Assembly (NCBI RefSeq): GCF_000305775.1
Contig: NC_018866.1
Coordinates: 2,685,001-2,749,000, forward strand
Direction of reading: 5' to 3'
DNA length: 64,000 nucleotides
Source: Dehalobacter sp. DCA
GTDB taxonomy: Bacteria; Bacillota; Desulfitobacteriia; Desulfitobacteriales; Syntrophobotulaceae
Each line of letters opens with the position of its first letter. Position 1 is the first letter of the stretch. This document shows positions 28,051 through 50,727 of this stretch, piece after piece. The notes beneath the pieces are model-generated. The model did no database searches. It saw only the letters and a program-made list of their open reading frames with translations, and was not told where the DNA came from. A program made the position numbers and the translations under genes.

Positions 28051-29289
28051 CTATCTTTTTCCTTGCCCTTTACCGTTATGTCCGTTATTTGAAGAGGTAT
28101 TTATGACCGTGTTCTGAACGGCCTGTGCATCGACTGTTGTTTCATCCGAAGTAGACTGGCCATCGGCTGTGGCATTCTGATCGTCTGCAACTGTTGCATC
28201 CTGTTCGTCCCCTGCTTCCAGGCTCTCTTCCTCGCCGCTTACGGCCTGATCTTTATTGGCTTTCTTGTAGTCCTTTATGTTCTGAGCTTGCTCTTTCAGG
28301 ACTTCTTTGGTTTCTTTCATCGTCTCAACTTTGATTTTCTGAACATCTTTTCTGAGGTCCTGCATGTCATTTTTATATGCTTGAGCCTGTTCTACTTTTC
28401 CCAGAGCGGCTGCGATGGCAGCCTCATCACCTGAAGCACGGGCTTGTCCCAATTCCGCCTTGGCTGCTGCAAATTCTTGCACAGCTTCAGCATAGGCTAC
28501 TTTCGCAGCTACATAGGCTTTAATGGCAATGGTATTCTGGACTTCGGCTTGGATGATATTCTGCATGATCTCAGCCTGTTCTTCCGTCAGATTGCCGCTG
28601 ATTTTCAGGACAATTTTGTCGGCATCACTTTGGACAAGTTCAATGCTGGCAAGTAGATTGCTGATGACGGTATTTTCTTCTGTGTCAACTGCCACCGTTT
28701 CATCCATGGCTGTTTCATCCGTAGTTGTTTCTTCAGTGGTAGCTGCGGTGGTTTCTTCCTCGGCAGTGGTGGCATCTGTACCCGTAGTATCCGTTCCGTC
28801 AACTGCTTCGGTATCCTCAATGATCTGTTGAACCTGGAAATTGGCTTTCTTTATCGTATCTGAATAGACTTTCAAAACCTGTTCCATCAAATCCAACTGG
28901 TTTTGCTCGGACATGATTTCCGCTTCAGCCAGTCTTTCATTCGCAAACTCGACCAGCAGTTCTGCTTTTCCTTCCGCAGAGAAGGTCACGGCCACCTGAA
29001 CACTTTCAATCATTTGTTCGAGTGAGTACAGCCAGCTGTCCGGCGTTACACCAGCTTCATCGGCAATTTCTTCATCGACTGTATCAGCTGTAGTATCATT
29101 TGTAGCATCATTCGTAGTTTCGTTAGCAGTATCGTCTGTTGTATTCGTAGCATCCTCGCCAGTTGTTATGGTCTCGGATTCAGTTGTTGTAGTGTCACCC
29201 GTCACTGTTTCAGCAAAAACATAAGTTGGAGCAACAGCAAAAGTAAAAAGCAAACACAGAACCGATACCAAAATCCTTTTTTTGAACAT
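28051..29289 (-). CDS. Secreted DUF5667-like protein under c-di-GMP riboswitch control
   Basis: A 412-residue exported protein with a signal peptide (1-26) and a Thr/Asp/Glu-rich linker (27-75). A helical domain follows (TPDSWLYSLEQMIESVQVAVTFSAEGKAELLVEFANERLAEAEIM), which resembles DUF5667. Then come another acidic Thr-rich linker (about 135-195), a long Ala/Glu/Gln-rich coiled coil (215-340) and a low-complexity acidic tail ending in a basic GKGQGKR. The two disordered acidic linkers suggest a surface protein spanning the wall. AAAGGAG precedes the ATG. A c-di-GMP-I riboswitch and terminator lie in its leader, so expression follows c-di-GMP. Confidence 0.78.
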   Translation of the reverse strand: MFKKRILVSVLCLLFTFAVAPTYVFAETVTGDTTTTESETITTGEDATNTTDDTANETTNDATNDTTADTVDEEIADEAGVTPDSWLYSLEQMIESVQVAVTFSAEGKAELLVEFANERLAEAEIMSEQNQLDLMEQVLKVYSDTIKKANFQVQQIIEDTEAVDGTDTTGTDATTAEEETTAATTEETTTDETAMDETVAVDTEENTVISNLLASIELVQSDADKIVLKISGNLTEEQAEIMQNIIQAEVQNTIAIKAYVAAKVAYAEAVQEFAAAKAELGQARASGDEAAIAAALGKVEQAQAYKNDMQDLRKDVQKIKVETMKETKEVLKEQAQNIKDYKKANKDQAVSGEEESLEAGDEQDATVADDQNATADGQSTSDETTVDAQAVQNTVINTSSNNGHNGKGQGKR

Positions 29290-29376: not shown

Positions 29377-29403
29377 TAATTAAGTGTTAATTCAGTTACC
29401 CAT

Positions 29404-29487
29404 TCGGCAACCCGGCTGCCATAACCTTTCGGCTTTAGACCCGTGGCTTTGCGTCTCCGCCTTTCGACGGATTTGCCCTTATCGTGT
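29404..29487 (-). ncRNA. c-di-GMP-I (GEMM) riboswitch aptamer
   Basis: The minus strand carries the class I aptamer consensus in order: AAGGGCAAATCC, the GAAA tetraloop, GACGCAAAGCCACGGG, TCTAAAG (tetraloop receptor), a GAAA-capped second hairpin, and GCAGCCGGGTTGCC. This matches GEMM-I closely. It lies 115-200 nt before the DUF5667-like gene with an intrinsic terminator between. Known family members bind c-di-GMP and control motility, adhesion and surface genes. Confidence 0.93.
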
Positions 29488-42519: not shown

Positions 42520-45192
42520 TTATTTAATTGTTACTACGATAGTCTTGAATGGCGTAGGAGCTCCCCATTTAGTGACACCGATGGAGATTTTGCCAGTTGT
42601 GCCAGCATCCCAGGTAATATCACCAGCTGCCAGAGCCACACCGCTAAGGGTTCCAGTACCATATTTCTTAACTTCAACTTTACCAATCGGTACATCGCCA
42701 ACATCATAGGTATCATCTTCGCCGTCACCAGCAACATTTACATCATAGAAGATATAACCAGTAGCATCGTCGATCTTGATTTTACCATAACCAGCGGAAC
42801 CGTTGGTTGCAATATTCTTAACTTGCAGAACTTCGGAAATCGGCAGGCTGGTGTCTGTTACTGTGCCTACAGATTCAAAAGTTACATCTGTAATTGCAGG
42901 AGCAGTGTTTTTAACCGTAATCGTCCTGTTGGCAACAGCTATACCAGATGTTGTTGTGACCTTAACCTGGGAAGTTCCAGTAAATCCAGGAATAAGGCTT
43001 CCAGTTACTGTAACAAGGCCACCAAGAGCCGGAGCAGCATCTGCGGTTATCATACCAGGGAAGCTAGAAGGACATACTTCTGTGATTCCAGCAATCTCAG
43101 CAGCTTCTGCAGGAGCTACCGCATATCCGCCCGAAGTGTATCCCATAATATAGAGACCTACATTTACATTTTTGTCTTTTGCAGCAGCTTCTGGGTTAAG
43201 GTCGATTGTGTAATCGGCAGAATCCCCATTAGCAGCTTCAATAACATATTTAGCAACAGCAGATTGGGCGGAAACAGCGACTGGTAAGCTTAACACTGAG
43301 GAACCAACTAAACCATCAGCGTTAACTTTTTTAATAAAGAGGGAACCGGATCCTGTTGTAGCTGCAGCATTGTCAACCACTGCAATGTTTATTTTTCCTT
43401 TAGTATCAGGGTCTCCACCAGCACAATCAGCAATTATCTCGCTGTCTGCATTATAGACGTTAGCATCAATAGCGTAACTATATGCATCATCTTCATCACC
43501 AACGAATGGATCGCCGTACTGGTCTAAAACAGTCAATTGAAGAAATGCTGTACCGGTAGTAGCAACTTTTAGAGAAGAAGAGCTAGCTGTAACTTTGCTC
43601 GCTTTACGTACTCCGGAAGCACCTACTACATTGATGGTAAATGTTTTTGTTACCGAACCCGATTCGATTGTAATCGTTGCAGATCCAGGCATTTCTGCAC
43701 GCATAACCGTAGGAGTAGTGTCAGAGATAGATACAACATACGGATTCGAAGAACTTAGTACAACATCTTCTAAGATGTCAACGTTTTTGCTGCCATTGAC
43801 AGTATCTGCCTTAACTTCGGTAACGGCAGCATACTCGCCCTTAACCAATGTGTTGCTGCTGAGTTTGTCAATAAGGGTAGTGGTTGCATCAGCATCATCA
43901 ACTTTAGCCAGTTTGTAGGAGGTGATTGCGCTAGCAGCAGCGTAGTCACCATCAATAACTCTTACTGTTACAGGATCTGACTCGGCGACAATAAGCCCAT
44001 CTTTCTTAACTACGATGGTATAGTCAAAATCAAAGAAACTGTCAACCAGAAGGCCATCGAGATCATCCTTGAATAATTCGCCCGTAAGGCTGACATCCGT
44101 ACCGAAGAAAACATTGTCAGTTGCAGTAAACTCAATATCATAACCAAGGTTTTCTAAAGCGTTCAGGCTAATTGTGCGTCCACCATTTACGGTGAAAGCC
44201 AAGAACTGTCCGGCGTTAGTAGAATAATATACTTTGCCGTCAACACCAGCTACAGAGGTGATTTCTTTGATCGGTGCAGCTGTAACGCTGTTTTTTACTG
44301 CATCAGAAACGGCATTAGTTCCGCCTAGAGCAATAACTGTCTCTACTTTATCTTTTACAACGCTTGCAGCAGGAACGCTGGAACCGTTGGAAAGAAGAAT
44401 AGGAGCAGTGTATTTACCAGCCAGTGAAGAAGCTGCAAGAGCATCAACAAGGCTTAAGCCATTGGCAATATAAACTTTGCCCAGGTTGAAGCCGAGGGTG
44501 GATACAACTGCAGTATTGGTTGCAAAACGGTCAGCGCCAGAAAGACGGGTAGCACCTGCATAATCCTTGACAACTGTGGTTCCGCCTACCAGGTAGGTGG
44601 TGGATCCAACAATTTTGGAGGAATCTACAGTTCCGTCAGCTTTGGTCAGTACGATAGCGAAGTCTTTAGCTGCAGCATAGGAAGCTACAGAAAGAGCATC
44701 TGCCAGCGAATTGTAACCAACAACGAAAGTACCAGCAGGGCTGGTCAGTTTAGCGTTGATTGCATTAGCAGTAGCCCAGCGATCAGCACCAGCAAGCTTC
44801 GTAGCAGTAACACCGGAAATCGCATTGACTTCGGCAACAACTGCATCGGAAATAGCACCGATAACATAAACTTTGGTAGCACCCAGGGCAGCGATTTTAG
44901 CTTTTACGCTAGCATCAAGGGCTGTTTTGCCTGTTAAAAGGATCGGGGCGTTTTCCTGGCCGGCTAAAGGTGCGGCAGCCAGAGCGTCAACGAGGTTGGC
45001 TTGATCGGCAGGAACAAGGATTACTGTACTAGCAGTAGTCCAGCCTGCGCCAGCAATTTCTAGAGATGTTCCAATTCGGTCTGTACCTGCAAGTCTGGTG
45101 CTGTCAGCTGTTGCAGCAAACATAGCAGCAGGCATCAAGGTCAGAACCATAGCAATGATAGCTAATACGGCTATCTTCTTCGTTCTACTCAT
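42520..45192 (-). CDS. S-layer-like protein with three N-terminal CWB2 repeats
   Basis: An 890-residue exported protein with a clean signal peptide (MPAAMFAATA, cut about residue 27). Three CWB2 repeats fill about 30-310 (RLAGTDRIGTS, KLAGADRWATA, RLSGADRFATN). Residues 315-890 are a long beta-rich region, Ala/Val/Thr/Asp-rich, probably several Ig-like (Big_2-type) modules (SSNPYVVSISDTTPTVMRAE, ITIESGSVTKTFTINV). The low-Cys, Thr/Ala/Asp-rich composition fits an S-layer subunit. A long structured leader (45193-45490) and stacked terminators suggest high, regulated expression. AGGAG is 10 nt from the ATG. A large non-crystalline adhesin is the alternative. Confidence 0.85.
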   Translation of the reverse strand: MSRTKKIAVLAIIAMVLTLMPAAMFAATADSTRLAGTDRIGTSLEIAGAGWTTASTVILVPADQANLVDALAAAPLAGQENAPILLTGKTALDASVKAKIAALGATKVYVIGAISDAVVAEVNAISGVTATKLAGADRWATANAINAKLTSPAGTFVVGYNSLADALSVASYAAAKDFAIVLTKADGTVDSSKIVGSTTYLVGGTTVVKDYAGATRLSGADRFATNTAVVSTLGFNLGKVYIANGLSLVDALAASSLAGKYTAPILLSNGSSVPAASVVKDKVETVIALGGTNAVSDAVKNSVTAAPIKEITSVAGVDGKVYYSTNAGQFLAFTVNGGRTISLNALENLGYDIEFTATDNVFFGTDVSLTGELFKDDLDGLLVDSFFDFDYTIVVKKDGLIVAESDPVTVRVIDGDYAAASAITSYKLAKVDDADATTTLIDKLSSNTLVKGEYAAVTEVKADTVNGSKNVDILEDVVLSSSNPYVVSISDTTPTVMRAEMPGSATITIESGSVTKTFTINVVGASGVRKASKVTASSSSLKVATTGTAFLQLTVLDQYGDPFVGDEDDAYSYAIDANVYNADSEIIADCAGGDPDTKGKINIAVVDNAAATTGSGSLFIKKVNADGLVGSSVLSLPVAVSAQSAVAKYVIEAANGDSADYTIDLNPEAAAKDKNVNVGLYIMGYTSGGYAVAPAEAAEIAGITEVCPSSFPGMITADAAPALGGLVTVTGSLIPGFTGTSQVKVTTTSGIAVANRTITVKNTAPAITDVTFESVGTVTDTSLPISEVLQVKNIATNGSAGYGKIKIDDATGYIFYDVNVAGDGEDDTYDVGDVPIGKVEVKKYGTGTLSGVALAAGDITWDAGTTGKISIGVTKWGAPTPFKTIVVTIK

Positions 45193-45339
45193 TTAGTCAA
45201 ATCTCCTCTCTTTCTTTAAAAAGGGTTTTTTTGTCTTCGGGCAAACCTGATTCAATTTAATTTCTGTCTTTGAATCAGTCTCCCTTACTCGATGCGGAAT
45301 CTTCTTCTTCACCCCCCTTTACAGTGTCGCAAAGATTAT

Positions 45340-45431
45340 CCTTAGACATTGCGCAATATCTAAAGGCACCACCCAACCCGGGGGCGTCCCCCCTCTGAGC
45401 CTCGTTCCTCAGGGGCGGTTATCCCTTTAGA
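45340..45431 (-). ncRNA. Structured 5' leader RNA of the S-layer-like gene (uncharacterised)
   Basis: On the minus strand TCTAAAGG pairs with CCTTTAGA to close a junction. Inside are ACCGCCC/GGGTGGT, CTGAG/CTCAG and GGGGG-GACG-CCCCC hairpins. The 3' strand CCTTTAGA can instead form AGATATTGCGCAATGTCT, extended by CCTT/AAGG, with the next bases. The two folds exclude each other, as in riboswitches. It starts about 240 nt before the ATG. I could not match it to a known class. A further hairpin AGAAGCT/AGCTTCT lies at 45453-45475. Confidence 0.55.
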
Positions 45432-45714
45432 CGTTCTATGGGTAAAGAGAAGCTTATGTAATGAGCTTCTCATACCTCCATATATTATTCTTTAAAGAAC
45501 TCAATATTCCTGCTAAAGCACACAACTTTTTTCACAGGAAACATTGGTATTCCTTAAGAAATTGACATAATCACCCAAATTAATCGCGCTATGTTATTCT
45601 ACAATATTCGCGCAAAAATTTCCACTGTTTTTTTAGTGACATTCTGTTCACAGTCCCTCTATAAGACGGCTTTTGGGGCATTTACCTGACGCAGGAGACA
45701 AATTGCTTCTTATT

Positions 45715-48474
45715 TTACAGTAATCCGAGCTGCCGTATCTCCGTCAAGACACTACTCGGCAATGCTTTTGCCCCGCCGATCGCTATCACCGTTTTGCCTT
45801 TGTAGGATGACAGCAAAACTTTTTGACCGGCAGACAGACCACTTTGGGAAACGAGCAAAATATTGGATGAGCCTGTCGCTGCCAATATTCCTCCGGTCAG
45901 TGCATCGGGAAAATTCATTCCTGTAGCTATATATAGTACCTGTCCTGTAGTTTTATGTTCTTGGAGAACGCCTGCAGACGTTGCATAACGATCCGCACCG
46001 CCGATTCTGACCGGGGAAGGCAGCTCTGACAGTACATTTCCTGAGACCGCTCCGTTCCCGCCGATCACTTCCGTAGTAATAATGGAACTTTTCTTCAGAG
46101 CAATCAGCGTCTCGCTGTTTAAGATCCCGGAAGACGTCAACAAAATTGGTTTGCCCTCTACTGCCGCGAAAGAAGCCGCTGCAATTGCATCCGGAAAGTT
46201 GGCCCCGCTGACCACGACTGCCTGCCCTTTTGTGCCAAGCATGTCGGCGACAGCCGCCGCAGTGTCATATCGGTTGTTTCCGGCCAGCCGCTTTACAGCG
46301 GCAATATTGGCGAGCTTTGCTTCGACGGCAGCTGAAACAGCCCCCGTGCCGCCGAGAATAATAATTTCATTTGGGTTCAAATCCTGAACTGCCTGATAAA
46401 CTTCCTGCGGCAGCTCGTTAGAGTATGTCAGCAGGACAGGTGCGTGGTATTTGTAAGCAAGCGGTGCTCCGGCCAGCGCATCGGGAAAATCATCAGCGCG
46501 GGCAATCACAACGGTATCTGCACCGGTCGGAAACACTTCCCTTGCAATGGCTAAGGCTGTCATGATCCGGTCCGATCCGGCGATCCTGTCCGTATTAGAA
46601 TTCGGACTCCAGCCAACCCAATAAGTACCGGGCTCATAGATGGAGACTTCCACCTCTGCAGCGTTCGTAGAGAATCCACCGCCAATCCTAATCCATCTCG
46701 ATCCGCTCCACCGATATAAATAGGCAAGATAGTCTGATTCTGATCCGTACGCGTATGAGGCAGGCAACTCTGCTTTGACCGTCAGGTTAAGGACTTTTTC
46801 AGGCAGTACTTCTCCCCAGCTGACTGCATACACCCCACTGCCGGAAATGATCCCTTCAGGAAAACTGCCCGGAGATTTTGCTTCAGATATGGAAATGTTA
46901 ATCTTTTTTTCCGTTCCGGCGCTGTCGACCTGCAACGCAAAGGCTCCGGTCGGGACGGTCAGCTCGACAGCCGGTTCCTCTCCGGCACTACCCGCAGCTA
47001 CGGTGCCGCCTTCCCAGCCCAGAACGGTTGGGGATGCATATCTCTGCAAAGTTCCAAACGTCTTCAGCGCACAGTAGATATCCAATCTGCCGTACCCGTA
47101 GTCATCATCCCTGCCCTCCTGCCCGAGATCATAGGCGGATTCTATCAGGGCCTGCTTGATTTGATCGGCCATCAATCCTGGATATTTGCTCCAGAGCAGG
47201 GCTGCGGCGCCCGTAACAAACGGTGCCGCGATCGAGGTCCCCGTCATATAGGCACAGCCCGTCTCTGTACTGGACCAGTAATCGGTAAGGATCCTTTTGC
47301 CCGGAGCGGAGAGCAGCACCTCCGGTCCTGTCAGGGAAAAATCCGTAATCACATCAGAGGAATCCAAAGCCGAGACAGCCAAAACGTTTGGATTCGCCGC
47401 AGGATAAGACACCTCGCTGGTTCCCGCAACAGTCTGGTGGCTGTAGACCTGGGAAGTGCTTCCGGAAACATTACCCGAAGCTCCAATCAGCAGGCACCCT
47501 TTATCAGCGGCATACTGCAGCGCGTCGTCAAGGATTTTGGTTTCTTCATCAGAACCCAGGCTCATATTGATAATCTTAGCACCGTTATCGACGGCCCAGA
47601 TAATACCGTCCGCGATGACGGCATCCTCTCCTTCACCGTTTCTGTCCATGGCCTTGATCGGCATGATTTTCGCATTATAGGCGACTCCGATAATGCCTTT
47701 ATTATTATTCCGGGCGGCGATCAGTCCGGCCACAGAAGTGCCGTGTCCGTTGTCGTCCTGTACAGCTAAGGTCGCAGTACTTCGCGTAATCGCGTTATAC
47801 CCTTTCACAAGATTGCTGCCGTTTGCATCCGCCAGATCCGGATGATCGAGGTCTACGCCGGTGTCAATCACGGCAATCACGACTCCTTGGCCGGTTACAC
47901 CTTCTTGCCAGACCTGGTCGGCCCTTACCCTTTGCAGCCCCCACTGGTAACTGTATTCGGGATCACTGACAGCTGTAGTGAAAACTTTCGTATCTGCAAC
48001 GCCTTCCGTCTGATATTTTTTACTCCAGGACGCATTTAGAACTCCCGGGACTTGAAGTGTTTTTTGCAGGATATCCGCTGCTTCATTTGTATCTTTGGTT
48101 CCTTCGAACTGCAGTGTGCAATAATCAAGCGGCCCGGTCCTTACCAGCTCGCCTCCGACAGCTTCAGCCAGTGTATCGAGATCGGTGTTCTGAGTTTTCT
48201 CAACGACCAAACGTACGGCTGCCGGATCATATTTTTCCGTTATAAACAGCTGCTCGCTGTTTTCGCTTGGCGTTTGCTCAGATTGGGCCGGCAGTGTTGA
48301 AGAATCAGATATCTCTATAGCAGCTGTGGCCTCCCCCAGGCCGTCTGGTATGCCTTGAAATACCAGAATAAAACAAAGCAAAAGTGCTGAAAAACTTTTT
48401 ACGTTTAGAAAGAAATTTATTTTCAATCCGATCGTTTTTTGTTTTAGCGGATTCCTGGTGCTTATAGGCAGCAT
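45715..48474 (-). CDS. Cell-wall-bound subtilisin-like protease (S8 plus three CWB2 repeats)
   Basis: A 919-residue exported protease with a signal segment (about 20-50), an I9-like propeptide (to about 170), and an S8 domain at about 180-470. The full triad is visible: IAVIDTGVDLDHPDL, DNGHGTSVAGLIAAR and TGTSIAAPFVTGAAALLW. A beta-rich region follows (about 490-640), then three CWB2 repeats (about 645-919; DRIAGSDRIMTA, RLAGNNRYDTA, RIGGADRYATS). It likely matures or sheds surface proteins, like Cwp84-type enzymes in role though not in fold. The ATG at 48474 has GAGG 8 nt upstream, better than the GTG at 48540. Divergent from the CWB2-GH18 gene. Confidence 0.9.
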   Translation of the reverse strand: MLPISTRNPLKQKTIGLKINFFLNVKSFSALLLCFILVFQGIPDGLGEATAAIEISDSSTLPAQSEQTPSENSEQLFITEKYDPAAVRLVVEKTQNTDLDTLAEAVGGELVRTGPLDYCTLQFEGTKDTNEAADILQKTLQVPGVLNASWSKKYQTEGVADTKVFTTAVSDPEYSYQWGLQRVRADQVWQEGVTGQGVVIAVIDTGVDLDHPDLADANGSNLVKGYNAITRSTATLAVQDDNGHGTSVAGLIAARNNNKGIIGVAYNAKIMPIKAMDRNGEGEDAVIADGIIWAVDNGAKIINMSLGSDEETKILDDALQYAADKGCLLIGASGNVSGSTSQVYSHQTVAGTSEVSYPAANPNVLAVSALDSSDVITDFSLTGPEVLLSAPGKRILTDYWSSTETGCAYMTGTSIAAPFVTGAAALLWSKYPGLMADQIKQALIESAYDLGQEGRDDDYGYGRLDIYCALKTFGTLQRYASPTVLGWEGGTVAAGSAGEEPAVELTVPTGAFALQVDSAGTEKKINISISEAKSPGSFPEGIISGSGVYAVSWGEVLPEKVLNLTVKAELPASYAYGSESDYLAYLYRWSGSRWIRIGGGFSTNAAEVEVSIYEPGTYWVGWSPNSNTDRIAGSDRIMTALAIAREVFPTGADTVVIARADDFPDALAGAPLAYKYHAPVLLTYSNELPQEVYQAVQDLNPNEIIILGGTGAVSAAVEAKLANIAAVKRLAGNNRYDTAAAVADMLGTKGQAVVVSGANFPDAIAAASFAAVEGKPILLTSSGILNSETLIALKKSSIITTEVIGGNGAVSGNVLSELPSPVRIGGADRYATSAGVLQEHKTTGQVLYIATGMNFPDALTGGILAATGSSNILLVSQSGLSAGQKVLLSSYKGKTVIAIGGAKALPSSVLTEIRQLGLL

Positions 48475-48654
48475 TTTTTTGTCCTCACATTTTTGTGTTT
48501 TGTATTTGTATTTAGATTTGTGTTTTTGTATGTTTTTCACAAATTCGGCAAGATCTTATATTTTCCTGCATTTTGAACAGGACTTTCGAGTCTGATGGCG
48601 AAATAAAGAGATATCCAGTTTTTTGCCAGACAGAATATATGGAGGAGAATCTTT

Positions 48655-50727
48655 ATGTTCAAGTTAAAAATGAATCGTCATCAAAAAAAGCAAGCGACAA
48701 GCCTGGTTAGAAAAGGAATAGCAACTCTGACCCTGGCTTCTTTCTTTACGTGCAGCCTGTTTATGGGGACAGGAGAAACGCCTAAATCTGCCTATGCTGC
48801 AGACAGCAGTACCACTTCCTTTACCCGTTTTGCCGGAGAAACCAGATATGAGACCGCAGTCGAAATATCTTCAAATAACTGGACCAATGCCAGCAGCGTC
48901 GTCCTGACCCGCGGAGATGCGTTTCCTGACGCCCTGGCCGGAGCTGTTCTGGCCAACAGTGCCGTAGTAGGCGGCGGGCCGCTGCTGCTGACCGAATCCA
49001 ACCGGCTGCGCCCGGAAGTCCTTGCGGAAATCCAGCGGCTAAATGCTTCCTCGGTCTTTATTCTTGGCGGGACGGGAGCGATATCGGCAAGCGTGGAAAA
49101 TGCGTTGAAAGCAAATGGCTTAACGACCTACCGGATTCAAGGAAATGATCGTTATGAAACAGCTGCTAATATTTCAACCACTTCTGTGGAAAGCAACACC
49201 CGGGCCTTTCTGGCTTCCGGCAAAGTCTTTGCTGACGCGCTCAGCATTTCTTCGTACGCAGCAGCCAATGGAATTCCACTCCTTCTGACCGATACGCAGA
49301 AAGTCCCCATGGCAACCCTGAATGCACTGCAGAAGCTCGGTGTCACGGAGATCACCTTGATCGGCGGTGAAAGCGCAATTAGCGCTTCGGCTGCAAATCA
49401 GCTCAAAACAGCCGGGTATACTGTCAGCAGGCTGAGTGATCTGGACCGCTACAAGACCAATGTGGCCATTCTGAAAGGCCTTCCTTTCAATATGGATAAG
49501 ATGATCGTCGCGACAGGCAGCTCCTTTCCGGATGCGCTGGCAGGCTCTGTACTCGCTGCCAGGAATAATAATCCGATCCTGCTGGTTCCCAAAGACGAAG
49601 GTGCCTTGCAAAATACTCCGACGACCGTTTATCTTGGAACCAACAGAGCTAATGTGAGTAATTTCTTTTTTCTGGGCGGATTTGACGTGATTAGTACCGA
49701 AGTCCAGAACATTGTCCAGATTGGAAGCGTTAATTCAAAAATCTCGCTGCAGTTCTGGGACGGCTATGCTAATAAGACAACGTATGAGAACCAGCTGTCT
49801 TATGTTCCGGGTGATCTGTCGGACTATATCGATATTCTGGTTCCAAACCTTGCAGGAGCCGTTCAGGCCGACGGCAGCTTTGCCTACAGATTCAGCAGTG
49901 CCGAAACACCCAAGTATCTCGTTACTCTTGGCCACAGCAAAGGCGCCCAGGTTGTGCCGATGGTCATGAGCAGCGGCAGTACGGCTGATTCCGTGCTGCA
50001 GAACGCGACCAAACGCAGTACTTTTGTGAACAGTTCCCTCAAACTGATTGCGGAAACCAATGCCGACGGCATTCTGGTCGATATGGAAGCACTCTCCGAA
50101 AGCTCTGAAGAAGGCCTGACTGCCCTGATGCAGGATCTGTACACGCGGCTTCATCCGCAGGGGAAGCTGGTCATGGTCTCTGTCATGTCCAAAACCTCCG
50201 AGACCGCTCAACCCTGGTACGACGAGTACGATTACAGCGACCTTGCGCAGTATGTCGATTATGTCCAAATCATGTCCTATGACAAACATTATTCGACCTC
50301 CGCTCCCGGCCCGATCGCGCCATTGGATTGGGTCAGAGAAGTTATCGCTTATGCCGTGACTGAAATTCCTTCGGAGAAGATCCTGATGGGCGTCCCTTAC
50401 TACGGAAGGGCCTGGAGAACGGAAGGAAGCGGGTGGGTATCCAAAGTTTTTGGCTGGGCAGTCGCTACGCAGACCGCAGACCAGTTCTGCGCAACCATCT
50501 CCAGAGAGACCACCCTGACGGACCCGATCGGCGTGCCAACCTTTAAATACGTTGATGAAAGCGGCTACAGCAGAACAGCCTATTTCGATGACCGGCTCAG
50601 CTGGGGAGAAAAATTGGATATCATGGACGAATACAATCTCGGTGGCATCGGCGGCTGGTCCATGGGCTGGATCAACGAAGTCAGTACTCCGGAGCTGTAC
50701 CCGCTGCTGAAAGAGCGGATCAAATAA
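48655..50727 (+). CDS. CWB2-anchored GH18 family glycosidase
   Basis: A 690-residue exported protein with a signal peptide (about 15-48), three CWB2 repeats (about 57-340; RFAGETRYETA, RIQGNDRYETA, RLSDLDRYKTN) and a glycoside hydrolase family 18 domain (about 360-690). The GH18 DxxDxE-type motif is ADGILVDMEAL with the catalytic Glu. QIMSYDKHYSTSAPGPIAPL, GVPYYGRAW and GIGGWSMGW are further family signatures, closest in style to YaaH/SleL-type N-acetylglucosaminidases. It probably trims peptidoglycan or wall glycans at the surface. GGAGGAG precedes the ATG by 7 nt. Confidence 0.9.
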   Translation: MFKLKMNRHQKKQATSLVRKGIATLTLASFFTCSLFMGTGETPKSAYAADSSTTSFTRFAGETRYETAVEISSNNWTNASSVVLTRGDAFPDALAGAVLANSAVVGGGPLLLTESNRLRPEVLAEIQRLNASSVFILGGTGAISASVENALKANGLTTYRIQGNDRYETAANISTTSVESNTRAFLASGKVFADALSISSYAAANGIPLLLTDTQKVPMATLNALQKLGVTEITLIGGESAISASAANQLKTAGYTVSRLSDLDRYKTNVAILKGLPFNMDKMIVATGSSFPDALAGSVLAARNNNPILLVPKDEGALQNTPTTVYLGTNRANVSNFFFLGGFDVISTEVQNIVQIGSVNSKISLQFWDGYANKTTYENQLSYVPGDLSDYIDILVPNLAGAVQADGSFAYRFSSAETPKYLVTLGHSKGAQVVPMVMSSGSTADSVLQNATKRSTFVNSSLKLIAETNADGILVDMEALSESSEEGLTALMQDLYTRLHPQGKLVMVSVMSKTSETAQPWYDEYDYSDLAQYVDYVQIMSYDKHYSTSAPGPIAPLDWVREVIAYAVTEIPSEKILMGVPYYGRAWRTEGSGWVSKVFGWAVATQTADQFCATISRETTLTDPIGVPTFKYVDESGYSRTAYFDDRLSWGEKLDIMDEYNLGGIGGWSMGWINEVSTPELYPLLKERIK

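Follow-up and report, generated by a model that had tools for sequence, protein, structure and literature searches.

A conserved structured leader RNA with a start-less Shine-Dalgarno-like box precedes CWB2 S-layer-type genes in one bacterial order

The leader of an S-layer-type gene of Dehalobacter sp. DCA contains an RNA element of ~130 nt, and our data support the view that it is a real, conserved, cis-acting RNA of that gene. The leader RNA probably sets the amount of coat protein made. The reading that we favor, with a probability of roughly 45%, is that of a previously undescribed cis-regulatory leader of the main CWB2 S-layer gene, in which two states would gate a STAB-SD-like site and set mRNA stability or translation. 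The window, that is, the whole stretch of DNA analyzed, covers 64,000 nt (NC_018866.1, positions 2,685,001-2,749,000 of the forward strand), and the features of the leader are collected in Table 1.

The 298-nt leader (45193-45490, minus strand) folded with an energy of -92.1 kcal/mol, when compared with -72.5 ± 4.6 kcal/mol in shuffled sequences (z = -4.3), and none of the 200 shuffles was as stable. A chance fold was excluded by the shuffles together with the covariation described below. The original prediction had placed a closed multi-branch junction with a GGGGG-GACG-CCCCC hairpin at 45340-45431. The junction and the hairpin were recovered in the minus-strand sequence, but these bounds are too short, and ~45437-45305, extending 3′ to an SD-like box, describe the element better. 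The hairpin expected 5′ of the junction corresponds to P0, and the long gap before the ribosome site amounts to ~130 nt from the switch region. Every statement of that prediction about the sequence held, and the evolutionary evidence is much stronger than the fold energy. It had reported the 5′ hairpin, but had missed the sigma-H-type promoter motif and the start-less SD-like box.

Table 1. Features of the leader and of the gene that it precedes, in 5′-to-3′ order of the transcript.
Feature	Positions	Strand	Remarks
Sigma-H-type promoter motif	45485..45513	-	-35 GCAGGAATA 45513-45505, 11-nt spacer, -10 AAAGAATAA 45493-45485
P0 hairpin	45436..45481	-	putative transcript 5′ end; predicted in the window and most main copies, with differing stem sequences
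P1, 5′ strand GTCTAAAGG	45432-45424	-	pairs with 45366-45358; four P1 pairs changed on both sides among homologues
P2, 5′ strand ACCGCCC	45413..45419	-	partner 45374-45368; double changes in 6/6 modelled pairs
P3 hairpin CTGAG-GAACGAGG-CTCAG	45395..45412	-	variable in sequence and length; in most independent homologue folds
P4 hairpin GGGGG-GACG-CCCCC	45393-45380	-	cells 99.4% paired; loop almost invariant
P2, 3′ strand GGGTGGT	45368..45374	-	partner of ACCGCCC
P1, 3′ strand CCTTTAGAT	45366-45358	-	common to P1 and P5
P5 palindromic hairpin CTTTAGATATT-GCGC-AATGTCTAAGG	45340..45365	-	CTTTAGATATT 45365-45355 with AATGTCTAAGG 45350-45340, loop GCGC
P6, possible anti-P5 hairpin	45328..45353	-	putative; CGCAA 45353-45349 with TTGCG 45332-45328, or overlapping alternative
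Start-less Shine-Dalgarno-like box AAAGGGGGGTGA (STAB-SD-like)	45309..45320	-	conserved among homologues
Real ribosome-binding site GAAAGAGAGGAG	45203..45214	-	conserved before ATG in homologues
Controlled gene, 890-aa secreted CWB2 protein, S-layer type	42520..45192	-	Pfam PF04122, three stretches, E 2e-41

P1 closes a three-way junction of P2, P3 and P4. Because a MAFFT alignment with RNAalifold, given no structural model, placed P2 wrongly and recovered only P4 and P5, covariance-model alignments were used; these are fitted to the structure and hence biased towards it. In the alignments of 60 and 67 distinct sequences, 94.5 and 95.1% of the P1/P2/P4 cells were paired, and 13 and 12 of the 20 pairs, respectively, had changed on both sides. 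None of 500 shuffles matched the real alignment on any of five measures, and P1/P2/P4 pairing fell to ~62% when the partners were slid by one column. P3 was left out of the covariation table. Compensating changes in P1 (e.g., TCTAAAAA/TTTTTAGA) were found in Desulfosporosinus second copies, and P4 showed G-C, G-U and A-U variants at several pairs among homologues. Single-sequence folds, which are independent of the alignment bias, gave the three-way junction in most copies. The junction helices P1, P2 and P4 are supported by covariation in homologous leaders, the check that the original prediction had proposed. A diverged second copy (L047, genome G026) has a different hairpin where P4 with its GACG loop would lie; P1, the start-less SD and the palindrome (U-A instead of U-G) are retained.

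By DNA search, the leader was found in 43 of 61 genomes, the window's own genome included. Of 83 genomes of the class, 53 carried the element according to the covariance model, some with as many as three copies; all 53 belong to three families of one order, which we infer to be Desulfitobacteriales. Another family of the class, represented by nine genomes, gave no hit to the model, nor did these genomes match the first 155 residues of the controlled protein. Among 398 genomes of the phylum, strong hits were obtained in the same order only, the others lying near noise (≤28 bits), and the viral contigs searched contained no copy. A scan of 84,980 species for the palindrome pattern returned 44 stretches, from Desulfosporosinus, Desulfitobacteriaceae or Peptococcaceae-type, and Gracilibacteraceae or related bacteria, a few of the stretches being assigned no further than to Bacillota. 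On the basis of these searches, the element apparently does not extend beyond Desulfitobacteriales. In 19 genomes of the order, CWB2 matches were found and no RNA hit; many of these assemblies are incomplete.

Wherever it could be read, the downstream gene encoded a secreted CWB2/S-layer-like protein that begins like MKKTKK-LA-LAI--M--- and carries CWB2-type repeats. In the window's genome, the first 155 residues of the protein have 17 matches, against one RNA copy; the RNA is thus particular to the main S-layer-type gene. The type of protein suggests that the controlled gene makes the actual S-layer and is highly expressed. Two neighbours also have CWB2 domains, a subtilase (45715-48540, minus strand) and a glycosyl hydrolase 18 protein (48655-50727, plus strand), and both are without the leader RNA.

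The sigma-H consensus is RnAGGAwWW-N11/12-RnnGAATww, and GCAGGAATA-N11-AAAGAATAA in the window is, as a motif, a strict match to it. Since this motif lies just upstream of the 5′ hairpin P0, transcription probably starts there, putatively at ~45480-45477. A relaxed form of the motif was present in 42 of 73 unique upstream regions, when compared with an expectation of 0.0004 per region (~0.03 in total). It is conserved upstream of most main copies and absent mainly from second copies; the motif before P0 was the sole relaxed match in the window. In several Desulfosporosinus copies P0 itself is weak. Another strict sigma-H-like motif (GCAGGAAAATATAAGATCTTGCCGAATTT) was noted at 48541-48569 (minus strand), at the 5′ end of the subtilase-CWB2 gene.

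Downstream of P5 and upstream of the real ribosome site lies an SD-like box, AAGGGGGTGAG. When pairing with the 3′ tail of 16S rRNA was calculated, the early box outscored the real SD in 63 of 65 leaders (medians of -16.1 vs. -13.0 kcal/mol), a small number of start sites being miscalled in this comparison. A start codon was within reach of the box in a single leader, the other 64 being start-less, and a small leader peptide was rejected on this ground. The start-less box suggests control of mRNA stability or of 30S loading. In one copy (L138) the early box is missing and the real SD directly follows the palindrome, which offers a natural test of what the early box does. Four Desulfosporosinus copies (L024, L028, L048 and L049) have an extra small hairpin of the GGGACG...CGTCC type directly 3′ of the box, with apparent compensating changes noted by eye.

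The 3′ strand of P1 doubles as the 5′ strand of P5; this helix is the alternative pairing of the P1 closing strand, through a self-complementary segment, that had been read from the sequence originally. P5 cells are 95-98% paired across homologues and nearly invariant, with no covariation signal, and covariation cannot test P5 because it hardly varies. The C-rich strand of P4 can pair with the SD-like box (P7) in 97% of cells, and neither P5 nor P7 showed covariation clearly beyond shuffles. The P1 and P5 forms are 0.6 kcal/mol apart in the window (ensemble energies, region ending at the early SD box), and in most homologues the gap is a few kcal/mol at most. Several clades favor P1 over P5 by 4-8 kcal/mol, so toggling there would need help. 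P6 can be formed only when P5 is absent. The segment downstream beat its shuffles (p < 0.05) in 30% of 53 unique leaders and P6 is absent from the others; as a universal anti-P5 helix it was rejected, being present in part of the family only. A diverged copy (L133) keeps the P5 3′ strand although P5 pairing is damaged, and this strand may therefore be conserved for another reason. In another (L032) P1 is damaged and P5 is intact; L032 and L138 may be decaying copies.

No terminator-type U-run followed P5 in the leaders read, which makes a transcription attenuator unlikely, and with the real SD ~130 nt further on a standard riboswitch output is not visible. The mutually exclusive stems of the original prediction can both be formed in nearly all homologues, with near-equal energy in many, but P5 is without covariation. 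Its proposal of a riboswitch or another control element stands as a conserved cis-acting RNA. Two-state switching of the leader is only partly supported.

Searches of Rfam 15 at the gathering cut-off gave no match in the leader, in six homologous loci or in L031. At a relaxed threshold, the leader's sole match was a human lncRNA model, hit on the opposite strand with 19.3 bits vs. 38 needed. A known RNA family was rejected at both thresholds, in agreement with the early view that the element fits no known class. A c-di-GMP-I riboswitch (RF01051, 88.6 bits) was detected at 29403-29487 (minus strand), before the gene of a 412-aa secreted Thr/Glu-rich protein (28051-29289, minus strand); it is a separate element of the same window, with no match in the S-layer leader. 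Long structured S-layer mRNA leaders, linked to mRNA stability or feedback, precede Lactobacillus slpA and Thermus slpA, and the likeness to the present leader, as a long structured leader of an S-layer gene, is one of description only. No earlier description of the element was found in the open-access literature (subscription papers being outside this scope).

Among published elements, the SLH motif comes nearest; this riboswitch candidate of Synergistaceae, Clostridia and Negativicutes precedes SLH-domain genes in ~60% of cases (Stav et al., 2019; PMC6429828). The motif is, like the leader element, an orphan structured RNA before surface-layer genes, with a proposed cell-wall signal. It is set apart by distribution and target gene only, because the leader element occurs in Desulfitobacteriales-type genomes only and before CWB2 genes. 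Unlike the range of the SLH motif, the palindrome scan of 84,980 species included no Synergistaceae or Negativicutes hit. Strong start-less SDs and blocked 5′ ends stabilise Gram-positive mRNAs (PMC3997798), and STAB-SD leaders have been described for cryIIIA of Bacillus thuringiensis and others (Agaisse and Lereclus, 1996, cited in PMC3997798). These leaders share with the element a strong SD that no start codon follows, set in a long leader, theirs belonging to a very highly expressed gene. The box of the element, in contrast, follows a conserved covarying junction and a competing palindrome, and stabilisation here is putative. Since there was no Rfam match and the SLH motif differs in distribution and target, we file the element not as a riboswitch but as a new lineage-specific family of structured leader RNAs whose possible output is unusual.

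In the favored two-state reading, the parts would be ordered 5′ to 3′ as sigma-H-type promoter, P0, P1-P4 junction, P5, start-less SD-like box and real ribosome site. In state 1, P1 would hold the junction, the P5 3′ strand would be kept away where P6 exists, and the box would be open to the 30S subunit. A docked 30S subunit would block 5′-to-3′ decay (the STAB-SD principle) or supply ribosomes to the start, leading to high S-layer output. In state 2, P5 would displace P1, and the freed C-rich strand of P4 would cover the box (P7), with less stability or translation. A small molecule, a protein or ribosome occupancy are candidate triggers of the balance.

This two-state reading is favored because (i) P1, P2 and P4 covary, the P1 and P5 forms are near-equal in energy, and P5 and P7 are formable in nearly all copies; and (ii) the start-less early box beats the real SD, all readable targets are CWB2/S-layer-like, and no Rfam family matches. 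It is weakened by P5 and P7 being without covariation, by the frequent absence of P6, by the copies L133, L032 and L138, and by the clades with a much better P1. That the leader might represent a new class of ligand- or protein-sensing switch, with access to a start-less ribosome-docking site as the output that sets S-layer mRNA life, is a bolder suggestion that we consider doubtful.

Switching might be dispensed with altogether if P0, the junction and the start-less SD formed a rigid 5′ shield that constitutively keeps the S-layer mRNA long-lived, the P5 palindrome then being a processing or protein site, or kept for its sequence alone. Protective leaders are known in long-lived Gram-positive mRNAs (PMC3997798), and the conserved start-less SD, the clearly better P1 fold in many clades and the absence of covariation in P5 are consistent with such a stabiliser. 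We regard it as unlikely, given that it leaves unexplained both the 95-98% pairing of P5 alongside P1 and the near-invariance of GCGCAATGTCTAA. The palindrome could also be read in DNA, as an operator bound by a dimeric regulator, instead of in RNA as a hairpin, and its 26-nt dyad is nearly perfect. The flanking RNA helices covary, however, and a T-G mismatch is kept in 64 of 67 dyads, which suits U-G pairing in RNA and not symmetry in DNA; an operator is very improbable.

Two further readings would give the junction a specific partner. With a ligand, it would serve as aptamer for some cell-envelope-linked small molecule, with P1/P5 as expression platform, as suggested by near-invariant parts of the junction (the P4 GACG loop and P1), by the use of the P1 3′ strand in the competing helix, and by the single type of target gene. 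Such a riboswitch is improbable: metabolite riboswitches often control several genes of a pathway, whereas the element is limited to one order and one gene type; there is no terminator-like U-run 3′ of P5; the real SD is without a conserved cover; and P2 and J12 are variable. Alternatively, a protein, possibly the S-layer precursor itself, would bind the junction or the palindrome and regulate synthesis or decay by feedback. The presence of one element per main S-layer gene and the conserved sequences of the P4 loop and the palindrome would suit protein sensing, but the controlled protein is exported and the binder is purely hypothetical, with no candidate named, and we find this reading quite improbable.

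Few proteins are as abundant in their cells as those of S-layers, and little is understood of how S-layer synthesis is adjusted to growth. A conserved RNA of this size before a single gene type is a defined, testable handle on this question, in an order with dechlorinating and sulfate-reducing members. Should the start-less SD be the output, the element would tie a structured RNA to the control of mRNA stability, which has rarely been described for such elements.
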